Position numbers and translations under genes: made by a program
Shown: positions 9,097 to 46,960 of the stretch, piece after piece
How positions within the stretch are numbered: the stretch's first letter is position 1
How the letters are laid out: each line of letters opens with the position of its first letter
Origin: Sulfuracidifex tepidarius
GTDB lineage: Archaea > Thermoproteota > Thermoprotei_A > Sulfolobales > Sulfolobaceae
NCBI RefSeq assembly: GCF_008326425.1
Contig: NZ_AP018929.1
Location: forward strand, 634,875 to 698,874
Direction of reading: 5' to 3'
DNA: 64,000 nucleotides
Notes under the pieces: model-generated
The model's input: only the letters and a program-made list of their open reading frames with translations
Databases searched by the model: none
What the model was told of the DNA's origin: nothing

Positions 9097-9126
9097 GTTT
9101 CAAACCATCTAAGGATTACTACAAAC
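9097..9126 (+). repeat. Solitary CRISPR repeat, 1.46 kb from the array
   Basis: 28 of 30 bases match the repeat of the array that starts at 10586. It begins GTTTCAAACC and ends TACTACAAAC; the changes are C to A at repeat position 11 and C to T at position 21. No second repeat lies at the expected 66-base spacing. It sits 51 bases before the gene at 9178. Confidence 0.95.
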
Positions 9127-9177: not shown

Positions 9178-9681
9178 ATGAGTTATTATGGCCAAGACGG
9201 GTACGCTGCAGTAGGAGGTTTGAGAGGACAGCCTGCCATATTTTTCCCCGTAACTTATGACTACGGCAACTATAAGTATGTCATTCAAACTAATGGATAT
9301 TTTAGTGACGGCAACGGAGTCAATCCGTCCTTCGCCATAGAAGGAACGTACACAGCAACTCCTCCATTCAATAATACGGGTTGGGATGCAATGTATGTTA
9401 GCGGAGTTGCAGTAACTGATATAAACGCTGTAGCAGGCCACTCATCAGCAACTGGAGTAGGAGGTAATTCACCAATTCCTTCATACTATGCTGAATCTGG
9501 GCTCACCTTATTTCATGAACATAATAGCTTCCTGAACCTCTGGGGATACCCTTACGCTTGGTACTTCAGCATAGGAACTCCCTCTTCCTATAGTGGGCTT
9601 AACTACAAACAGCTATCAGAAGGACAGAGCTACGACACGATAAACGGTCTTAACTACGCTGTGAACTGGATATCACCATAA
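9178..9681 (+). CDS. Hypothetical protein, probably the C-terminal part of a surface protein
   Basis: 167 residues, rich in Gly, Tyr, Ser and Asn (SYYGQDGYAAVGG, later GVGGNSPIPSYYAE), without a signal peptide or membrane segment. The composition is that of an extracellular protein. The same frame is open upstream for another 12 codons (LLIFPGQEEYLS) without a start, back to a stop at 9139. This suggests a truncated gene that lost its 5' end where the solitary CRISPR repeat now stands. It is followed after 31 bases by the next gene. Confidence 0.5.
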   Translation: MSYYGQDGYAAVGGLRGQPAIFFPVTYDYGNYKYVIQTNGYFSDGNGVNPSFAIEGTYTATPPFNNTGWDAMYVSGVAVTDINAVAGHSSATGVGGNSPIPSYYAESGLTLFHEHNSFLNLWGYPYAWYFSIGTPSSYSGLNYKQLSEGQSYDTINGLNYAVNWISP

Positions 9682-9712
9682 AGTATTTATTAAAGCAAAA
9701 TGGTTTTTTACC

Positions 9713-10057
9713 ATGATCTTCCCTTCCCTATTAGTTTTCGTTTCCGGAGTAGTTACGGCTTTGCTAACCCTCTATTTCTCTTGGGGAAGACCTAGGTTGA
9801 ATAAAAGGAACTTGTCAGTCATATTTTCCTCAATACTCCTTGAAGGGATAGGCTTATGGCTGTTTTCCATTGACCACCCTGCATACATTTTCAAACCTAT
9901 ACCGTTACCTCCAAACGTTACTTATTATGGCCCCGGAGGGGAAACAATAATAATTCCTCCTCCATCATATGCGTCGTTATGGCCTTATCCTCTTATAATA
10001 GGGATAGCCTCATTAGTTGTACTCCTCTTATTACGTAAAGCAGGCGTAATTCCATGA
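9713..10057 (+). CDS. Small membrane protein, unknown function
   Basis: 114 residues with three hydrophobic segments (about 2-22, 33-50 and 90-107). A short external loop is rich in Pro and Gly (PIPLPPNVTYYGPGGETI). Its stop overlaps the start of the next gene (ATGA at 10054), so the two are co-transcribed. Not recognised. Confidence 0.6.
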   Translation: MIFPSLLVFVSGVVTALLTLYFSWGRPRLNKRNLSVIFSSILLEGIGLWLFSIDHPAYIFKPIPLPPNVTYYGPGGETIIIPPPSYASLWPYPLIIGIASLVVLLLLRKAGVIP

Positions 10058-10392
10058 ACAAGGTAAAACTTCTATGGGTCATAATTATAGTAGGCAATTT
10101 AATAGATTACGCAGAGACCCTCTTCTTTTCTCACCTAGAGATATTGCAGTGTGACTACAACCCCTTGATATTAGGTAATACGGCTTTCCTGAACGTCTTC
10201 ATGGTATTGACTGGGGTGAAGTTGCTATCTCTGAGCGGGATCTATTGGTTCACCAGACTCTTTGATTACTTAAAAGTGAATGCATACAAGTGGATAGGGC
10301 TCTTGCCTTTCGCTGGAGGAACTGTCTTTATATTAAGTTGGAACCTTGTTGCGGTTTTGACTTCTGGCTATTTACAAGCTATGGGCCTTTAA
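10054..10392 (+). CDS. Small membrane protein, unknown function
   Basis: 112 residues with three or four hydrophobic segments. It starts MNKVKLLWVIIIVGNLIDYA. The layout resembles DUF5658-type small membrane proteins (an early Asn-x-x-Asp followed by a NPLI block), but this is only a resemblance. It is translationally coupled to the gene before it. The pair plus the gene at 9178 fill the gap between the solitary repeat and the array. Confidence 0.6.
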   Translation: MNKVKLLWVIIIVGNLIDYAETLFFSHLEILQCDYNPLILGNTAFLNVFMVLTGVKLLSLSGIYWFTRLFDYLKVNAYKWIGLLPFAGGTVFILSWNLVAVLTSGYLQAMGL

Positions 10393-10585: not shown

Positions 10586-13500
10586 AGTTCAAACCCTCTA
10601 AGGATCACTACAAACCCGCTACGAATAGACTATTGACTTGATCCGAATCATTGTTTCAAACCCTCTAAGGATCACTACAAACTTTGCGGGGGCTTGATTC
10701 TCTTTTGCCTTCTCTTTTGCGTTTCAAACCCTCTAAGGATCACTACAAACTCTCAGCAGCTCCGAGCATGCTCAGTGCGACTTGTTCGGGTTTCAAACCC
10801 TCTAAGGATCACTACAAACGATAGGTGAAAAAAAGTGGCAACACAAGGAAACCCAGTTTCAAACCCTCTAAGGATCACTACAAACCTATGTTGCCAATCG
10901 CTACTTTGACGAATTGCAGATGAGTTTCAAACCCTCTAAGGATCACTACAAACCTCCTTTGCGAAGGCTTGGGAAATCATAGCGGAGAAGTTTCAAACCC
11001 TCTAAGGATCACTACAAACTTCAGCAGCACCGTCACAGGCTACGCCTCCGCAGCAAAGTTTCAAACCCTCTAAGGATCACTACAAACCGTACACATTCGT
11101 GGGCCCTGTAATATTGAACTCTAGTTTCAAACCCTCTAAGGATCACTACAAACAAGCTTCGGGACAGATCCCGAAGAAGAAGATCGTCAGTTTCAAACCC
11201 TCTAAGGATCACTACAAACCGGGGCTATCAGGGTAGCAGTGATGAGAGAGTACTCCTTGTTTCAAACCCTCTAAGGATCACTACAAACGAGTCCTGTCAC
11301 AAATAATACTTGTTAAGTCATTCTGTTTCAAACCCTCTAAGGATCACTACAAACACAGAGCGGGCCCAGAGGATTGACGAAATTACGCAGAGTTTCAAAC
11401 CCTCTAAGGATCACTACAAACATTCACCTATGAATCATAAATGATTCACTAATATTGTTTCAAACCCTCTAAGGATCACTACAAACCAGAACAAAGATGC
11501 GTTTGGTCTCAGGTCTCGTATCGTTTCAAACCCTCTAAGGATCACTACAAACTAGGCTGGTAGATGCGCTAGAAGAAATCCCTGCGACGTTTCAAACCCT
11601 CTAAGGATCACTACAAACCCGCATGGAGAGCCCAAGTAAAGAAAGACGGTAAAGGTTTCAAACCCTCTAAGGATCACTACAAACCGAATTTCTTTTTCTA
11701 CACCTTTTTTTACCCCTTTGTTTCAAACCCTCTAAGGATCACTACAAACGTCTTATGGTTACTCAGGTAATTTTTGTTACCTGAGTGTTTCAAACCCTCT
11801 AAGGATCACTACAAACCATGCCGTTCGCTTTCATACTTTACGCTGTAGGACTGTGTTTCAAACCCTCTAAGGATCACTACAAACCCCTCTTTACAGGCAC
11901 AGTTACTTCTAGGATCTTTGTGTTTCAAACCCTCTAAGGATCACTACAAACTCGTGGCAAGTGAGCGGTGGATGTTCTACAGCTTAGTCGTTTCAAACCC
12001 TCTAAGGATCACTACAAACCGTGTTAAAGGATAAATTGCCGTTTCAAGTGCCGTAGTTTCAAACCCTCTAAGGATCACTACAAACTAGTATTAGAAATAG
12101 GTTTTTAGACTTTTATTCTGAGGGTTTCAAACCCTCTAAGGATCACTACAAACAAAATGAGAAAAACGAGAATAATATAAACGCTATCAGAGGTTTCAAA
12201 CCCTCTAAGGATCACTACAAACTAAATTGTCAGAAAAAAACGATCTAGATGATTTCATGTTTCAAACCCTCTAAGGATCACTACAAACGTGGGCGTAACG
12301 CTGAGAAGATTAAAGCCCTCATGGGTTTCAAACCCTCTAAGGATCACTACAAACGATTTCAAAGGACATCGAAGGCAACATAGACCAGTTAGGTGTTTCA
12401 AACCCTCTAAGGATCACTACAAACAAGAAGAAAATTGGCGTAACAACTAAAGTACGAAGTGTTTCAAACCCTCTAAGGATCACTACAAACTAGTGAACAA
12501 TGAGGGGTTCTTGGTTGACCCAGAAAGTTTCAAACCCTCTAAGGATCACTACAAACCTCCTCCCTGTCTCTCCTTAGCTCTCCGTTCTCATCCTGTTTCA
12601 AACCCTCTAAGGATCACTACAAACGTGTTGTTAGCATATGAAAAAGTAGGAGAAAAGCATTGTTTCAAACCCTCTAAGGATCACTACAAACATAAGTACC
12701 GTTAGACTTTTCTGGCTTGTACATTGTTTCAAACCCTCTAAGGATCACTACAAACCTATCACCGGAATCTTATTCGTCCCTGATTGAAGATTAGTTTCAA
12801 ACCCTCTAAGGATCACTACAAACTGCATCTTCTACACACTCCGGCGTTAATTTCTCATGTTTCAAACCCTCTAAGGATCACTACAAACTCTCCAAATGGC
12901 AAAAAGAACTAGTTGAGAACGCAATGTTTCAAACCCTCTAAGGATCACTACAAACAGAAGTTAGTTTCAGAAATAGAAAGAATACGACAACGTTTCAAAC
13001 CCTCTAAGGATCACTACAAACTGGCTTTGTTCCTCTCTCTTCTTACGCTGTCTCAGAGCGTTTCAAACCCTCTAAGGATCACTACAAACTAGTCCTACGT
13101 ACATTCACGTGAGAGTGAGCCCTTGTTTGGTTTCAAACCCTCTAAGGATCACTACAAACCGAAGAACTGTTTATTACGTATACTAATTGTCTCTTGGTTT
13201 CAAACCCTCTAAGGATCACTACAAACACGTGGCTAACTGCCATGATGGAGGAGGGGGAAAAGAAGTTTCAAACCCTCTAAGGATCACTACAAACAAGTGT
13301 AATTCTTCTATAACGTCTTGCTCCATTCCTTTGTTTCAAACCCTCTAAGGATCACTACAAACTACCCGAGGCTGAAACGTTGGATCGCCCTGATCGAGAT
13401 GTTTCAAACCCTCTAAGGATCACTACAAACACGTGGGTAAGAGTGCGGGCAACGAAGTCAGTGAAATGGTTTCAAACCCTCTAAGGATCACTACAAACGT

Positions 13501-16422
13501 ATGGCATCAATTTGGACTTATTGTTTCCAGATCTTTGTTTCAAACCCTCTAAGGATCACTACAAACAGATACTTCCTCATGAGGAATTAGGCGTTAAAAA
13601 ATGTTTCAAACCCTCTAAGGATCACTACAAACATGCCCTGTCTGGATATTTTTGCTTCAGCTCTCTACGTTTCAAACCCTCTAAGGATCACTACAAACAT
13701 CTCCTGGCTGTTCGCCTTTATGAAACATCTTGCACAGTTTCAAACCCTCTAAGGATCACTACAAACATTCCGCTTTACTATATTCCTTACTTTGCATTAG
13801 CCCGTTTCAAACCCTCTAAGGATCACTACAAACTGGTATTACAGCTATATCTACTATGTATATTCTTGGGTTTCAAACCCTCTAAGGATCACTACAAACC
13901 AGTAAAGTGAGAGGGCATGAGATACCTTGGTATTTGTTTCAAACCCTCTAAGGATCACTACAAACGCTTTAATCGATAGTACAAACGGCCCAAGCAATGT
14001 AAGTTTCAAACCCTCTAAGGATCACTACAAACGCTCCATTATTGAAATTAGCAGAACCTATGTTAGTATGTTTCAAACCCTCTAAGGATCACTACAAACT
14101 TGTACTTCACCGTGAACATGGCGACGGAGTAGATTGTTTCAAACCCTCTAAGGATCACTACAAACCGAAATAATATTCAGGAAATGGCGCGAATACGAAG
14201 AGTTTCAAACCCTCTAAGGATCACTACAAACACCACATGAACCGGAACTACTTTCACTTTGGTAAGGTTTCAAACCCTCTAAGGATCACTACAAACATAC
14301 GAGAGTCAGTTTAAGACACCGGGTGAGGTTCATGTTTCAAACCCTCTAAGGATCACTACAAACTCCCATTTTTGTCTTATCGAATCTATGTTCTTCTCGT
14401 TTCAAACCCTCTAAGGATCACTACAAACACGGAGTCCCCCCATTTTTTAGGTACCACTATGCTGGTTTCAAACCCTCTAAGGATCACTACAAACCTCTTT
14501 TAATGCCGTTGAATTCACTAATCCTTTCGATGTTTCAAACCCTCTAAGGATCACTACAAACTAGAAAAAGAAATTCGGTACCGAACTATGAGAAAAAGTT
14601 TCAAACCCTCTAAGGATCACTACAAACATCGAATTGAATAAAGACGTTAGTGATGAGGAAATAGGTTTCAAACCCTCTAAGGATCACTACAAACTGAGAG
14701 CGAATCCATGACTAGCAGTACTTATGAAAGGTTTCAAACCCTCTAAGGATCACTACAAACAACATGAGAACGAAATAAATCCTTACTTTTTTAGAAGTTT
14801 CAAACCCTCTAAGGATCACTACAAACTATTTATAAATGACCTCGATAAGTATTGGGTAGGTGGTTTCAAACCCTCTAAGGATCACTACAAACATATGTGT
14901 CAGAATGATCGCCGTTGAAGACATACTGTTTCAAACCCTCTAAGGATCACTACAAACCTTTTTTCACCTATCTACTAGTTTCTCACACTAGTATAGTTTC
15001 AAACCCTCTAAGGATCACTACAAACGCTTCGGGACAGATCCCGAAGAAGAAGGTTATATTGTGTTTCAAACCCTCTAAGGATCACTACAAACATAGCATT
15101 CGTTCACGGTATGGTCGTCGTCCTCTCTAGTTTCAAACCCTCTAAGGATCACTACAAACGTATTGGGTAGGTGCAAAAATGAGCAGAAATAATAAGGTTT
15201 CAAACCCTCTAAGGATCACTACAAACCATTCCACGAATGCGTTTCTTCTCCTTTCTCCTGTCTGTTTCAAACCCTCTAAGGATCACTACAAACGTGAAAG
15301 TTGCAGGTGAAACGAAGTTAGCTTTTACCTGTTTCAAACCCTCTAAGGATCACTACAAACGCACTATGGATGCAAACATTCCCTCCTTTTCTTATTCGTT
15401 TCAAACCCTCTAAGGATCACTACAAACTCATATGACATGCGATTTCGAAAAGGTATTCGAAAAGGGTTTCAAACCCTCTAAGGATCACTACAAACAGAAC
15501 ATTACGTCCTTCACCTTCAACCCTGCTTTTTCGTTTCAAACCCTCTAAGGATCACTACAAACTAAAATAAGTTGAATAAATCGTGCTTCTGGAAATGGTT
15601 TCAAACCCTCTAAGGATCACTACAAACCAGACATAAGAGCTACGAATTTATTTTTGAAAAAGTTAGTTTCAAACCCTCTAAGGATCACTACAAACCGACT
15701 ATGAGGAGGGTGAGGTGGATGAGTGAAACATGTTTCAAACCCTCTAAGGATCACTACAAACCCTCAGGCTCGAGAGGGCCATAGACATTCACACCAGTTT
15801 CAAACCCTCTAAGGATCACTACAAACGGAACGAGGTGGCAGGTCAGTGAGGGTCATAACGTTGTTTCAAACCCTCTAAGGATCACTACAAACTGGCAATC
15901 ACAATTTCGAATAGAGATCCGACTAGGTTTCAAACCCTCTAAGGATCACTACAAACTACTAAATGGCGTGTTTAATTACCCGCCATCCTATGTTTCAAAC
16001 CCTCTAAGGATCACTACAAACCATTATCTCTTCCTCAGGAACCACGTTCCCGCCTTTAGTTTCAAACCCTCTAAGGATCACTACAAACTTATTTGATATT
16101 ATTTCTATCTTGTCTTTGAGATGAGTTTCAAACCCTCTAAGGATCACTACAAACGAGGGGACTGGGGGTATTGTCCGTTGTCGGGATCATGTTTCAAACC
16201 CTCTAAGGATCACTACAAACAAATCGTGTCATGTACTTTGTTAGAACTGTCATTGAGTTTCAAACCCTCTAAGGATCACTACAAACTGAACTGAAAGCCT
16301 CGCCCTTCCAGGGCGTGGAGCAAGGTTTCAAACCCTCTAAGGATCACTACAAACCTCAGCGTCACTGAAACCACTGATTGAAACATAGTCGTGTTTCAAA
16401 CCCTCTAAGGATCACTACAAAC
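10586..16422. CRISPR. CRISPR array, 88 repeats and 87 spacers
   Basis: The repeat is 30 bases, begins GTTTCAAACC, has CTCTAAGGAT in the middle and ends CACTACAAAC. I counted 88 copies by their start positions (10586, 10653, 10721 and so on to 16393), at a mean spacing of 66.7. Spacers are 34-40 bases and all but two pairs look unrelated. Only the first repeat (10586) is altered, at its first two bases, which marks the left as the old, distal end. The leader should then be at the right, with transcription leftward. On that strand the repeat ends TTTGAAAC, like the 5' tag of many archaeal crRNAs. No cas genes for adaptation or interference lie in the window, so the array must be served in trans. 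Open frames across repeats are artefacts. Confidence 0.99.
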
Positions 16423-40563: not shown

Positions 40564-42398
40564 ATGAAAATAAGAGGGATCTTAATCTTTATTCTATTTC
40601 TAGCCTCACTTATCCTATTGCCGGGGTTTGGAGCTCAGACCCACGGGCAAGAGTACGAGTACACTTTACCTCAAGGTTACTTCGAATACTTTAAACTAAA
40701 CCTTAACGGAAGTTACGCACTGATCTACGGAGTTAAGGCTAACTCCTCAGTTACTGTTGACATAATGAACGCAGACCAGTTCATGTGTTTCAATACCACA
40801 GGGGTTCAGAGAGAGATCTATCAACAGAACTCATCACAAGTTGTTAATGGGCTTTTGGTCACACCAGGGACGTACTACCTGGTGGTTTACTCTCCCTTTT
40901 ACCCTTCCGCATTTAACGTGTACCTCAACTGGACCTCGTTACAGTTCGTGAAATCTACAGAGGTAGCCCAGGAGGAAGTAACTATACCGTCTCAGGAATA
41001 TTTCTTCACCAGGCTACATTTAACTACCATGGGTTCTCCCTTCACCCTTAACTTAGAAGGTTTAAGCAACGAGTCCGTGTCCTACGTCATCTGGAACTCG
41101 TCGACCGTCTTCAACTCCAGTGACGTCACGATCACGCTAGGTCAAAACTACTCTTTCGGTTACAACATTCATCTCTCGCCTGGGGTCTACTACCTCAATA
41201 TAACTAACCCTCACTCGGAGAGTGCATTGGCCTACTTTTACTACAAGATAGACCCAGAGTACGTTAACCCTTACCTAACCAGTTTGAATAGGGACGACTC
41301 CTTCACCATGGGACTAGCGTCCTACGGGTATCTAACTCGTCCAACATCTCGACATATTCCCTGAAGTTCAACGAGATTGCAGGTTTCTTCAATTTCTCAG
41401 AGATAAAAGCCTTTAACGCGTCAGGATATCTGGATAACGTAAGCGACTATGGGGCATCATTACAGATGAATGCGGTAGTCAGCCTGAATGGGTCGGTGTA
41501 TTGGCCCCAAGACGTTCTTATATTCATAACTAACGAGTCTGGAGTGTTCCTTCACGACAACGTGTTCAACCTCTCCTCTGACAACGCGACTCTGACCAAC
41601 CAGTCCATAACCTCACCCTCAGGGTTCGTGCTTGGGACAGGTCACAACGCGTACTACGGGAACTACAACTCCTCTATCTTCCTCAGTTACAGCCTCTCCT
41701 TTGCAGGTTACATGATCATGAAAGTGGAGAACTCCTCATCCGGCACTCTGATTAAATTCGGGGTGTTGATCCTGCAGAACGGAACTTACACCCACGAGAT
41801 GTTCTGGTTCAATAACGTCACGATCCATCAACGCGGTGATCCTTATTTCCTGGTGAACGGTACTGAGTACACTCCCGCTGGGATATACTTTTACATGGGG
41901 TCTTACTACGACGCAGAGCTAGTGCTGGCAGGCGAAGCGAATGGAGAGTCTACGAGTTTCACATCCCTCCACGGGAAGTTAGGGCTATTTTACGTGGTGG
42001 ACAACAAGTTGTATTCATTCCCATCATACTATACCTTCGGGGCTGATACTGGGGAGTCCACCAATGACGTTTATGTTTCCTATGACGGGGCTGTGCAGGT
42101 AAATTCAGGTCAATTAGACCTCACCGACTTCGGTCAATTGAACGCTTCTCAATATCCTCCGCTGACTTTCGAGGTTACTAGTCAGAGTTCTCCCCACGCG
42201 ACCCAGAGCTCCACAGGGAGTTCATCTCAACCTCCCTCACAATCGAGCGTAACTTCTAACGAGCAGTCAACCATGACCCACAATGTGTCAGGGAGTCAGA
42301 CTTCCAACACTGGGTCAAGTGACATAGACTATTCCTTCTTAGGGGGAATAGTGATAGTTATAGCAATGCTAATAGCGTCGAGAATGAAGAAGAAATGA
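40564..42398 (+). pseudogene. Thermopsin-family (A5) acid protease, frameshifted
   Basis: A signal peptide (KIRGILIFILFLASLILLPG) is followed by a thermopsin body. YVNPYLTSL and MGLASYG match the second thermopsin at 44337 (YVNPFVV, MGLASYG). The frame breaks at about 41330: after ASYG the base run has three G where four are needed to read on. The other frame then gives VSNSSNISTYSLKFNEIAGF and joins the ORF that ends at 42398. The end has a Ser/Thr/Gln-rich stalk (residues ~540-580) and one membrane segment (YSFLGGIVIVIAMLIAS). Thermopsins are secreted, acid- and heat-stable proteases. One base in a G run is also the commonest type of sequencing error, so the gene may be intact in the cell. 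Confidence 0.85.
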
Positions 42399-42784
42399 AA
42401 GAAACTTACCAAGGTATGCTCTTGAAGGAAAAAGGGCACTAAGTTCAAAACATGTGTGTTATACATATTAATACTTCAACCTCTTTTTTCTTTTCCTCCC
42501 ACTTTCATTTCGCTTTCCCCTTTCTCAGCCTTTTTCCGTCCTTCTGATTTAACCTCGGAGCAGTTTCACGGGAATTCATGTGACTTAAATGTTTTCACCT
42601 AGTAGTATTATAAAAAAAACAAATTTTATCCATTTTGCAGTGAGGAGGTTCTAGAACCTATAGCTAATTATTTGACCTCTATCACGTCGCTATTAATTTT
42701 AGGGTCATGTAAATCTGCAAGGATTTTCTGATAAGAGCTACTCGATGAAAGGAGAATCGTCATTACCTGCATTTAATACTCGTT
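42399..42784. other. Intergenic stretch holding element copy C
   Basis: It contains the ~180-base dispersed element (42561-42741), which ends about 43 bases before the CARF-HEPN gene, so the gene's promoter overlaps or abuts its right end. Confidence 0.55.
42561..42741 (+). repeat. ~180-base dispersed non-coding element, copy C
   Basis: It aligns with copy B (16790) from end to end: CAGTTTCACGGGAATTCATG, CCTAGTAGTATTATAAAA, CCTATAGCTAATTATTTG, TCATGTAAATCTGCA and TTTTCTGATAAGAGCTAC. Same orientation as the other copies. Confidence 0.85.
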
Positions 42785-43759
42785 ATGAGATATACAATCA
42801 TGGAACCGACTTACGTCCTCCTATTCCGCCCGCTTCACGAGAGGGTTAAGTTCCGATGTAAAGAGGTTCTACAAGGCACCCCCCACGAAGTAGTAAGCGA
42901 GTGTTTTAATATAGAGAAAGGGGTGACCACTGAGGAAGTGTCAGGGCTTCCGTTCCCCACTGTTTCCGTCAACCCAACTTTAAGCGGGATATATGATGAA
43001 ATCAAGGGAAGGGACGTCATCGTGATCTTACCAAGGGAATTGGACTCCTCCCTCCTTTTCATCACTTGCTCTTTCTTATCCAAGTCACGTGTCTTCTACG
43101 TGGACGGTGAATGGCTCAAGGAATGGGACTTGAACCCCATCTACCTTTCAATGGGGTTGAGGTTTCTAGATGACAGACTGATCCCGGACTCCCTTCCCGA
43201 GGTGAAGAGGTCCCTGTGGTACTTCAGGAACGGGATCACCTTCCTCTCCTTAAAGGAAATGGAGAACCTGAGGTCTCTCACAATGGACGACCTCTCGAGG
43301 GAGATGCTGAGTACCATCCTACTACCATCAGGCGACGACGTAACTAAGATAGAGGAGATGGTAAGGCTGTACATCAGGGCGGGTTACTACGACAAGGCTA
43401 TCTCGTTAGGACGCGAGCTACCCGTAATCTACTGCATGAGGGACAGAGGGTACGGAAAACTTCAATTCGACGAAAAGGACAGGAAGAGCGTATACATGAC
43501 GTGCAGGAGGGCGTTAAGGAAGGTCTTGAGGGAGTTCTACCCGGACTTCTTGGACCTCAGGAACTACCTGATGCATATGGGGCTATCAGCGTCCTTTGAC
43601 GTAGAAATGAGGGAAGGGTTCATGAGCTTAAGCGAGGAAAGACAGAAGATGATAAGTGAGGAGAACGTGAAGGAAGTAGCTGAAAACGTGTTGAACCTCG
43701 CTAAGGAAATACACGAGAGGGCTGAGGAGATTCTCTCGTCTGAGGGAGGAGAGGACTAG
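42785..43759 (+). CDS. Probable CARF-HEPN (Csx1/Csm6-like) protein
   Basis: 324 residues. The C-terminal part has the two HEPN landmarks: a helix MVRLYIRAGYYDKAISLGRE (about 192-211) and the catalytic R-x4-H of HEPN RNases in DLRNYLMHMG (Arg259, His264). The N-terminal ~110 residues look Rossmann-like, with RDVIVILPRELDSSLLFITC and RVFYVDGEWLKE at the positions of a CARF sensor. The usual nucleotide-binding TGGTK-type motif is not there. CARF-HEPN proteins cut RNA when type III CRISPR complexes make cyclic oligoadenylate. No cas genes stand beside it; the window's array is 26 kb away. Two starts are possible (42785 or ATG 42800). Its 3' end overlaps the convergent gene at 43701 by 59 bases. 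HEPN assignment is fairly sure; CARF is inferred. Confidence 0.62.
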   Translation: MRYTIMEPTYVLLFRPLHERVKFRCKEVLQGTPHEVVSECFNIEKGVTTEEVSGLPFPTVSVNPTLSGIYDEIKGRDVIVILPRELDSSLLFITCSFLSKSRVFYVDGEWLKEWDLNPIYLSMGLRFLDDRLIPDSLPEVKRSLWYFRNGITFLSLKEMENLRSLTMDDLSREMLSTILLPSGDDVTKIEEMVRLYIRAGYYDKAISLGRELPVIYCMRDRGYGKLQFDEKDRKSVYMTCRRALRKVLREFYPDFLDLRNYLMHMGLSASFDVEMREGFMSLSEERQKMISEENVKEVAENVLNLAKEIHERAEEILSSEGGED

Positions 43760-44336: not shown

Positions 44337-45884
44337 TTACTTCCCCCTAGATGATCTGAATTTAAGGACTGCCACTATAGCCACTACTCCTGACAGGACG
44401 GACACCAAGGCAAGCTCAATCTCCATGTTATCTCCGCTATGGATCAACGTAGTAGTATTAGGAAAGCGTGTTGAGTTGATCTTCTCGAAGCCGAATACCT
44501 TAGGAAGGGGAAACGGTGTCCCTTCTGGCTTCAATTCTCTCAAGTTCTCCTTCCCAGTGTAACTGTATGCCTCACCTGAACCTAAATAGACTACGTGCAT
44601 GTTGTCCACCCCCTCCTTAGTATCTGCCCCAAAGGAGTAGTAAGACGGAAACGGGACGTACCTAGTTCCGTTCAGGTAAAGGAGAGCCAACCAACCGTTA
44701 TAGGACTTGAGCGAAGTCACCTCCCCGTTTCCTCCTCCGCCTATTACGAGCTCTGCGTCGTAAAATAATCCAGATCTGGATACGTTCCCTGGTGTGTAAT
44801 TCTTACCATTTACCAGGAAATCAAAGATGCCCTTCACACTGTAGTTGGAGAACCAGTAAGTCTTCTCTGAAGTCAAATTCACGAAACCCGATCTCATGAC
44901 AGACTCGCCGTTGGTTTGACTGACGTTCAGCACAAGATAACCTACAAAAGGAAATGTGAATTCCTTCACGGAAGTAGAGCTCACATATATCAATGAGTTC
45001 TCGTCAAGACTTACGTTGAATACGTTCATTGTAAGGTAGTATGTGTCATTAAATGTGTTCATGTAAATTACGTTCTGTATGAAATATTGTTGGTCGCCGT
45101 TGCTAACTACTCCGTTTAGTTGAATTGAAGCGGAGTAAGGGTTTGCCAAGTCTTGGGACGAGTTCAACGTCCTAATTTGCGATATGTTTACGTAACCCAA
45201 AAGTGACGATGTATTGATTTCATATGTGGTCACGTTTCCTGAGTCGTTCATTACTCCGTACGAGGCTAACCCCATAGGCATATCTTCATTGGCTACGACG
45301 AACGGGTTCACGTAACTTGGATCGAACACGTAGTTGAGACAGGCCTCCTCACTGTAGTTGTGAGGGTTGTTTACAACTATACCGTAGCTCCCGGGGGATA
45401 GGTGAAGGGTATCATAGGCCCACGTTTTGTTGGCTGATATCAACATAAAGGATGAGTTATAAAGATACGAATTGAAAGTCGAGTTTCCCACTACGTTCAC
45501 CGTAATCCTGAACGGAGATCCTGAAGAGTAAGGCGTGACCCACTGTATCACGCTCTGATTCGGCCCTACGACAAGCGTCTCTCCTGAGACCTTAGACCAT
45601 GAATAGTTAAGGCGTGCTTGACTCGCGTTGGACTTGATCTCGTATTCGCCCTGAGGGAGGAGAACTTTCGTGGAAGAGTTAGACGTTATTCTCAGGAAAG
45701 CTTGATTTCCAAGGTAAAGAGTAGCATATGAGGGTTCGTCTGAAGTGAAACAAATAGTGACTACCCCTAGAGACTTCACCTCAATCATGTGAACGTATTC
45801 TGGCGAGAGGACTGCAGAAAACGAGAGGATCGGCTGAAAGAACATAATCAGGAGTATAGCTAAGGTTGTTAGTTTCTTTAGCAC
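44337..45884 (-). CDS. Thermopsin-family (A5) acid protease
   Basis: 515 residues, intact. A signal peptide (LKKLTTLAILLIMFFQPILS) leads to the thermopsin body with YVNPFVVANEDMPMGLASYG, GVVSNGDQQYFIQNVIYMNT, YDAELVIGGGGNGEVTSLKS and VPFPSYYSFGADTKEG. It carries many Asn-x-Ser/Thr sites. One C-terminal membrane segment (about 488-508) anchors the enzyme to the cell surface. It has the same layout as the frameshifted protease at 40564 and the two are paralogs. It acts on proteins outside the cell at low pH. Confidence 0.92.
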   Translation of the reverse strand: MLKKLTTLAILLIMFFQPILSFSAVLSPEYVHMIEVKSLGVVTICFTSDEPSYATLYLGNQAFLRITSNSSTKVLLPQGEYEIKSNASQARLNYSWSKVSGETLVVGPNQSVIQWVTPYSSGSPFRITVNVVGNSTFNSYLYNSSFMLISANKTWAYDTLHLSPGSYGIVVNNPHNYSEEACLNYVFDPSYVNPFVVANEDMPMGLASYGVMNDSGNVTTYEINTSSLLGYVNISQIRTLNSSQDLANPYSASIQLNGVVSNGDQQYFIQNVIYMNTFNDTYYLTMNVFNVSLDENSLIYVSSTSVKEFTFPFVGYLVLNVSQTNGESVMRSGFVNLTSEKTYWFSNYSVKGIFDFLVNGKNYTPGNVSRSGLFYDAELVIGGGGNGEVTSLKSYNGWLALLYLNGTRYVPFPSYYSFGADTKEGVDNMHVVYLGSGEAYSYTGKENLRELKPEGTPFPLPKVFGFEKINSTRFPNTTTLIHSGDNMEIELALVSVLSGVVAIVAVLKFRSSRGK

Positions 45885-46352: not shown

Positions 46353-46652
46353 TCAAACTGTCTTGAGCCCTTCTATCAGAATAGGCGCACACTCTTCAAT
46401 TCTCCTCTTATATTTAGACTGCAGGATTCCCTTGTAATCGATGGAATGTATTTTACCTTGATTTAACTCCACCTTGCCGTAGCCGTCAGGGTTCCTGAAG
46501 ATTATCTCCACTGTCTCTATCACGGAAATCACTACCCTTACCTTTCCTTTCAGCATTATCTCTTCTCTAATCTTGAAGTCCCACTCTAGCTCGTTCACTC
46601 TCTTAACTTCTATTGCCTTACCTAAACACTTGATGAAATTTTCAATTAACAA
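46353..46652 (-). CDS. Small protein of unknown function
   Basis: 99 residues, soluble (VKRVNELEWDFKIREEIMLK, then VIETVEIIFRNPDGYGKVEL). Its start overlaps the stop of the next gene upstream by seven bases, which supports translation as a pair. Not recognised. Confidence 0.65.
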   Translation of the reverse strand: MLIENFIKCLGKAIEVKRVNELEWDFKIREEIMLKGKVRVVISVIETVEIIFRNPDGYGKVELNQGKIHSIDYKGILQSKYKRRIEECAPILIEGLKTV

Positions 46653-46960
46653 TTTAGAACCACCGTAATGTCCTCACATTTAAAGTCCTTGACAAGTAGG
46701 GGCTTTAGCTTCTTCTCTAATTCCTGCGCTATGCACTCGAGATATCCCTCATTTTCCTCGTCCACCTTACCTACCCTATACGTAAACTTAAACCTCTCAG
46801 CCTCTCTAGGCGGTTTATAACTGGATAGCTGGTTCCTCCAAACATCTACAACTAAGGTCTTGCTTGGGTTTTCGAGGACCACTATGACGTTCTTCCAATA
46901 CACGTAAGGGGTTCTCAACTTGTTGAAGGTAAACCATTCTATCTTCGGTTTAACTATCAC
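46646..46960 (-). CDS. Small protein of unknown function
   Basis: 104 residues, soluble, alternating charged strands (PYVYWKNVIVVLENPSKTLV, later ERFKFTYRVGKVDEENEGYL). It stands between a four-segment membrane protein (16 bases upstream) and the overlapping gene downstream. The three form a small operon. Not recognised. Confidence 0.65.
   Translation of the reverse strand: MIVKPKIEWFTFNKLRTPYVYWKNVIVVLENPSKTLVVDVWRNQLSSYKPPREAERFKFTYRVGKVDEENEGYLECIAQELEKKLKPLLVKDFKCEDITVVLNC

Follow-up and report, generated by a model that had tools for sequence, protein, structure and literature searches.

A divergent Csx1-type HEPN protein with a reduced sensor domain, encoded apart from the type III CRISPR-Cas locus in Sulfuracidifex

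A Csx1-type HEPN protein is encoded on the + strand of Sulfuracidifex tepidarius contig NZ_AP018929.1, at positions 42785-43759 of the 64,000-nucleotide stretch analysed here (the window). This open reading frame of 324 codons, with R259-N-Y-L-M-H264 in its product, is as an earlier note, made from the letters of the DNA, had described it. The sole full-length ortholog found is in Sulfuracidifex metallicus (52% identical overall), and we refer to the two genes as the orphans. The true start is perhaps the second in-frame ATG, at 42800 on the + strand, which would yield a protein of 319 aa. This start is favoured because the N-terminus of the ortholog is shorter and because a TATA-like box (TTTAATA, 42772-42778, + strand) can be read ∼25 bases 5' of it, the box owing its meaning to the spacing of archaeal promoters. 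The orphan gene is flanked by thermopsin, by genes of unknown kind and, in S. metallicus, by hypA, and it lies outside any type III CRISPR-Cas locus. In the window, a thermopsin-like gene at 40564-42398 is frameshifted, being divided between two reading frames, and is adjoined by an intact thermopsin gene at 44337-45884 on the opposite strand. At 46353-46960, on the - strand, a pair of small ORFs that overlap each other (99 and 104 aa) had no match in Pfam or PADLOC. As the earlier note had stated, the CRISPR feature of the window nearest to the ORF is an array 26 kb off (10586-16422), which consists of 88 repeats of GTTTCAAACCCTCTAAGGATCACTACAAAC; a single degenerate repeat lies near it at 9097-9126. 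The three ORFs just before the array (9178-10392) had no Pfam or PADLOC match and no cas gene was recognised among them. Likewise, Pfam and PADLOC scans of part of the window's ORFs, in overlapping sets of 8, 8 and 7, revealed no cas gene.

The C-terminal half of the protein is readily placed. The PADLOC family CARF_HEPN PDLC01952 matches the window protein with an E-value of 2e-30, the best stretch being residues 179-309 only, and SisCsx1 was its PDB match (E 2e-17, best stretch residues 162-272). Judged by sequence, the HEPN identity is thus far above chance; in Pfam nothing matched up to E 1, and NCBIfam gave only a chance match (0.19). AlphaFold modelled ten-residue blocks from 181 to 320 with pLDDT values of 77-96, and Foldseek, run on this model, ranked SisCsx1 (6qzt) first. 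From PADLOC, AlphaFold and Foldseek we delimit the HEPN RNase domain core at residues 179-310 (43319-43714, + strand), in agreement with the Csx1-type HEPN domain that had been read from the sequence earlier.

The R-x4-H of HEPN domains is present as R259 and H264, within a predicted catalytic RNYLMH (residues 259-264; 43559-43576, + strand) that corresponds to R399...H404 of SisCsx1; the SisCsx1 numbering was transferred via the PDB-match alignment of the window protein. In an alignment with 14 canonical Csx1 proteins of the Sulfolobales, the equivalents of R354, C361, C380, R399, N400 and H404 were identical in both orphans and in 14/14 canonical sequences, and that of M403 in both orphans and 13/14. 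Outside these 14 stand an identical copy of L002 (L003), a protein of 300 aa without the N-terminal part (L014), a fragment (L018) and the broken gene of S. metallicus (L019), which was used in the tree only. The mutation H404A abolishes cleavage by SisCsx1 (PMC6754442), while D410 lies near the bases in a docking model of that enzyme (PMC6754442). The D410 position holds D in 13 of the 14 canonical sequences, whereas the two orphans have S there; their preferred RNA sequence may therefore differ. The idea that the orphan has a more basic RNA cleft was dropped, as two canonical sequences are equally basic.

The earlier description of the gene as an orphan without cas neighbours holds for its position and neighbourhood only, since the genome as a whole does carry a type III locus ∼1.4 Mb from it. 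This locus, near 2.08 Mb, encodes a GGDD Cas10, Cas6, four RAMP-family proteins, a canonical Csx1 of 480 aa and a Cas_APE2256 CARF protein; the palm domain of the Cas10 hits PF22335 with 1e-5, which narrowly misses the curated cut-off. A second, identical copy of the canonical csx1 lies at 0.83 Mb, so that this one genome holds an identical intact pair (L034:9199-10860, G000 near 0.83 Mb, and L035:7490-8932). The one that lies away from the type III genes shares 218 identical upstream bases; beside it are a TnpB-type fragment (PF07282) and an inverted repeat rich in GC, which would fit a move by an IS200/IS605-type element. The type III locus of S. metallicus contains Cas10 (GGDD) and a Csx1 that is intact and matches the standard CARF and HEPN families of Pfam. 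The same organism has a canonical csx1 of the hexameric type (L036:9474-10721), the CARF part of which is broken by several stops; its HEPN part stays open (260 aa), and a TnpB-type gene (PF07282) lies just downstream. Our Cas10 search, with half the protein of one subtype as query, picked up 3 of 31 genomes; as it missed the S. metallicus Cas10 in L036, which Pfam identifies, it does not amount to a census. With a Cas10-bearing type III locus in each organism, both probably produce cOA, and the orphan would therefore be separate in position only. A review of CRISPR systems in the Sulfolobales describes strains that carry csx1/csm6 without type III systems, and suggests functions beyond type III (PMC7694759).

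The presence of canonical Csx1 in the same cell bears on the possibility that the orphan modifies the canonical enzyme, joining or blocking its hexamer via the conserved HEPN insertion. Both cysteines of the insertion bridge (C361-C380 in SisCsx1) are kept as C217 and C240 in the two orphans, as they are in 14/14 canonical sequences, AlphaFold predicts the insertion helix at 236-251 of the window protein, and the two identical intact csx1 copies would offer a partner. Against such a role, the orphan has been retained in S. metallicus though the hexameric-type csx1 there is broken. Moreover, both orphans have A243 at the position of I383, a residue of SisCsx1 that, when mutated together with two others, disrupts the hexamer (PMC6754442); A occurs there in 0/14 canonical rows, which themselves vary at this position. 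We therefore consider a modifier role very improbable. To present the orphan as a natural hexamer breaker was likewise dropped as a main argument: E250 also occurs in 3 of the 14 canonical sequences and position 251 is variable, so that among A243, E250 and position 251 only A243 is confined to the orphans.

The N-terminal half is another matter. Between it and the HEPN domain we predict a linker of the HTH type at residues ∼115-165 (43127-43279, + strand), with LWYFRNG at 144-150. In phmmer, residues 116-166 align ungapped with SisCsx1 230-280 in a weak match of 5.4 bits, and in hhalign residues 115-150 match canonical Csx1 at E 0.006 with a probability of 6%; both of these weak matches pair the same LNP and RNG ends. 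Upstream of the linker, the ∼115 N-terminal residues resemble no CARF domain by sequence, and residues 1-162 of the window protein alone matched nothing in PADLOC. The canonical Csx1 encoded in this genome, taken as control, does match Csx1_CARF of Pfam, at 3e-12. Against a profile built from the CARF part of canonical proteins, the window protein obtained no score and the ortholog -1.7 bits, which is below about half of its scored shuffles. Outside 115-150, hhalign of the orphan N-terminal part against canonical Csx1 reached a probability of 0.3%, and among 28 pairwise comparisons of the N-domain with CARF domains a single one was conspicuous (3.4 sd). Residues 103-135 can be aligned without gaps to the last CARF strand, but this alignment was rejected as not going beyond shuffles (p 0.19 and 0.29). 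In each orphan it ranks as the top diagonal of 33 residues, with a shared register (z 4.1 and 3.1) that was chosen after looking; MAFFT prefers another. A profile of the N-domain matched 9 of 31 genomes at E up to 1, only the two orphans falling below 0.001; the next-best match (0.015, L042) was set aside as chance, since to the eye it resembles a V-type ATPase subunit. The earlier note had spoken of an unusual sensor motif. The canonical motifs are indeed absent, as shown below, but the change reaches further than that: the sensor as a whole is reduced to about half the usual length.

Structure prediction adds to this picture. In the window protein's own AlphaFold model, for which full canonical sequences were in the alignment, residues 1-134 stayed below pLDDT 50. 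For the S. metallicus ortholog the canonical rows were trimmed to the HEPN domain plus the end of the linker before it, and no CARF sequence could therefore shape the prediction. Here AlphaFold gives a small Rossmann domain resembling CARF at residues 1-102. The five models have mean pLDDT values of 66-77, with 77 for the best, in which pLDDT is 64-83 over residues 1-70, falls to 48-53 over 71-90 (the PDNGKLS loop and the next helix), is 70 over 91-100 and 49 over 101-110. The elements follow one another as strands 2-6, 13-17 and 20-24, helix 26-33, strand 36-42, helix 54-60, strand 65-69, helix 75-85 and strands 89-94 and 97-101. In the model these last two strands adjoin, and a hairpin of the last two strands is a CARF trait. 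Compared with canonical Csx1, and judged by strand order, the small N-domain seems to have no third strand and no large insertion.

With the whole ortholog chain, VIA-align placed SisCsx1 first (Z 15.5, rmsd 10.1, 291 residues), aligning residues 1-302 to 1-454 of 6qzt. With residues ∼1-102 the matches were mainly CARF domains (Z 5.7-7.1, rmsd 2.5-3.3), namely 2i71, Can2, ToCsm6, Card1, Cad1 and TtCsm6. Of the 17 rows at ranks 5-21, 16 were CARF proteins, if one includes 2i71, which we take to be a Csx1, the entry itself being titled 'unknown function'. An unrelated Rossmann protein, 3nkl, tied with the CARF matches at Z 6.6 and unrelated proteins were common from 5.6 down; with this tool, Z values under 8, such as the ∼5-7 of the N-domain, may reflect a mere common arrangement. 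The 1000 chains compared had been preselected by Foldseek on the whole ortholog model, which favours CARF-HEPN entries, but Can2, Card1 and Cad1 are among the N-domain matches despite not being such entries. From these models the N-domain is likely a Rossmann domain, and CARF, while not proven, is the natural reading because of its neighbours in the chain. We thus mark a predicted, reduced CARF-like Rossmann domain at residues 6 to ∼114 of the window protein (42800-43126, + strand), on the strength of a model of an ortholog that is 36% identical there and has low pLDDT at the key loop. The CARF-HEPN architecture and Rossmann-like N-terminal part proposed earlier, with structure prediction as the check, have met with a divided outcome. 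The HEPN fold is predicted as expected, the CARF-like Rossmann fold appears in the ortholog's model and not in the window protein's own, and, because the ortholog's model gives this small CARF-resembling domain, the architecture probably holds.

The residues by which SisCsx1 recognises its ligand are gone. Contacts of SisCsx1 with cA4 include D10, Y14, Y19, S51, T154, H155, G156 and N158 (PMC6754442). The motifs AG[DN], L[LV]PDSL and DLTHGTN, which carry most of them (D10, S51, T154, H155, G156, N158), were each found in 14/14 canonical Csx1 proteins and in neither orphan. The PRELDSS to which the earlier note had drawn attention (residues 83-89; 43031-43051, + strand) does appear, by strand order, to occupy the position of the DLTHGTN ligand loop. 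As a conserved motif it fails: the ortholog has a non-conserved PDNGKLS at this place, and for that reason the PRELDSS stretch looks, on comparison of the two proteins, more like the loss of a motif than the gain of one. A general CARF signature, [DN]x[ST]xxx[RK], follows strand 4 (PMC4012209). Neither the window protein, in residues 1-115, nor the ortholog, in 1-102, contains it, but only 5/14 canonical proteins have it, never at the DLTHGTN loop, which makes it a weak test in this family.

These motifs are central to the question whether the orphan is still a cOA effector, activated by cOA from the distant type III locus through a small CARF domain that binds cA4 or another ring in a rebuilt pocket. 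A type III locus that includes a GGDD Cas10 is present in both genomes, the CARF-HTH-HEPN layout seems to be kept in the models, a basic residue remains in the loop (R84; K in PDNGKLS), and in S. metallicus the orphan is intact where the CARF part of the hexameric-type csx1 is broken. Despite the loss of the SisCsx1 motifs, cOA may also be bound in some other way. On the other hand, these motifs are missing from both orphans and the loop is unlike between them, the orphan gene stands outside the type III locus, and for cOA S. metallicus can rely on a further Csx1 that is intact. We regard continued service as a cOA effector as rather unlikely.

The orphan is confined, as far as we could trace it, to the genus. 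In the 31 family genomes, 16 had a match and 2 of these were full length; a phylum sample of 398 genomes gave 11 with a match, again 2 full length. None was found beyond the genus in genome, viral, plasmid and phage collections, from which records near the source are perhaps absent, and a third genome of the genus (71% complete) yielded neither the orphan nor the neighbour protein of 132-148 aa described here. In both species the same side of the orphan carries thermopsin (50%) and this 132-148 aa protein (49%), which matched only these two of the 31 family genomes. The opposite side differs, with the frameshifted thermopsin gene in the window and hypA in S. metallicus. Identity between the two orphans is 36% in residues 1-117 and 70% in 179-310. 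Synonymous sites are saturated (pS 0.80; 12 of 46 fourfold sites identical), whereas pN is 0.32 overall, 0.45 in residues 1-115 and 0.25 in HEPN. Because pN is this low while synonymous sites are saturated, the protein has been under long-term constraint, and the same codon data disfavour a pseudogene. A tree built on the HEPN part separates the orphans, as a single group, from all 15 canonical rows (100/100, branch 1.91), their exact place being tentative since the tree is midpoint-rooted with two long rows. A recent duplication of the genus's own csx1 is disfavoured too, because the two canonical genes group together (100/100), and these and two rows of another genus stand apart from the orphans (97/98).

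The rates also bear on a further explanation, in which the HEPN RNase is basally or weakly active and its CARF domain a structural remnant without a ligand. The N-domain is pared down and is the fastest evolving part (pN 0.45 against 0.25 in HEPN), and VC1899, with its weak cA4-independent RNase activity, is a precedent. Yet the ORF is intact in two species despite saturated synonymous sites, the N-domain is itself constrained, its pN of 0.45 not being saturated, and an unregulated HEPN RNase would presumably be costly to the cell. Such a remnant thus seems improbable.

Taking the observed HEPN homology, catalytic residues, missing ligand motifs, one-sided synteny and constraint together with the CARF-like fold predicted in the ortholog, we favour the reading that the orphan is a divergent, long-retained Csx1-type RNase of Sulfuracidifex that is switched by something other than cA4, and give it a probability of about 0.5. 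An activator other than cA4 is most likely because the cA4-binding motifs of SisCsx1 are absent. The chromosomal gene would encode, in the genus Sulfuracidifex, a protein of the layout reduced CARF - HTH - HEPN. Two subunits would pair, each contributing R259 and H264 to a single composite RNase site, and this site may cut single-stranded RNA. The N-terminal Rossmann domain would act as the switch, its signal being passed through the HTH, and the activator could be a different small ligand, the ends of RNAs or a protein partner. A role in the response to stress or viruses is conceivable. So are the two roles that the earlier note had suggested, the sensing of a different nucleotide and service as a stand-alone defence protein. 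The more specific proposal, that a CRISPR-derived RNase was co-opted outside CRISPR in a genus of thermoacidophilic archaea and that its Rossmann core of ∼100 residues senses a non-cOA ligand and so controls HEPN, we put forward tentatively, at something short of even odds. What is new is an RNase of a known kind with a reduced sensor. In titles and the openings of abstracts, with full texts and subscription papers covered in part, we noticed no orphan Csx1 of Sulfuracidifex. Should the sensor no longer read cA4, one cell would hold a natural pair, a canonical cA4-type Csx1 and its relative, which would share the type of cutting domain and differ in the switch. The minimal size of a CARF domain would then become testable, as would the recruitment of archaeal CARF-HEPN proteins outside CRISPR signalling, which VC1899 and RtcR suggest likewise elsewhere.

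Among known systems, SisCsx1 of S. islandicus (PDB 6qzq/6qzt; PADLOC CARF9 CARF_HEPN PDLC01952) has in common with the orphan the R-N-x3-H of HEPN, the bridge cysteines, a probable HTH linker and the order of domains. The orphan differs from it in an N-domain of about half the length, without DLTHGTN, L[LV]PDSL and AG[DN], in the S at D410, and in the location of its gene away from cas genes. The second Csx1 of S. metallicus (L036:11917-13167; PF22230 and PF09455) is a CARF-HEPN RNase from the same genus, but it has standard CARF and HEPN matches in Pfam and its gene adjoins the type III Cas10. RtcR likewise has a divergent domain of the CARF superfamily outside CRISPR (PMC4012209), which is fused to an AAA+ ATPase and an HTH rather than to HEPN. 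By analogy, the nearest precedent is VC1899, a CARF protein that is likewise an orphan and is described as having weak RNase activity, without regulation by cA4, and as perhaps 'cast adrift' (PMC7969007). VC1899 (DUF1887) belongs to the Can2 family and is not a HEPN protein, whereas the orphan of Sulfuracidifex joins its reduced sensor to HEPN in a host with type III loci elsewhere in the genome.
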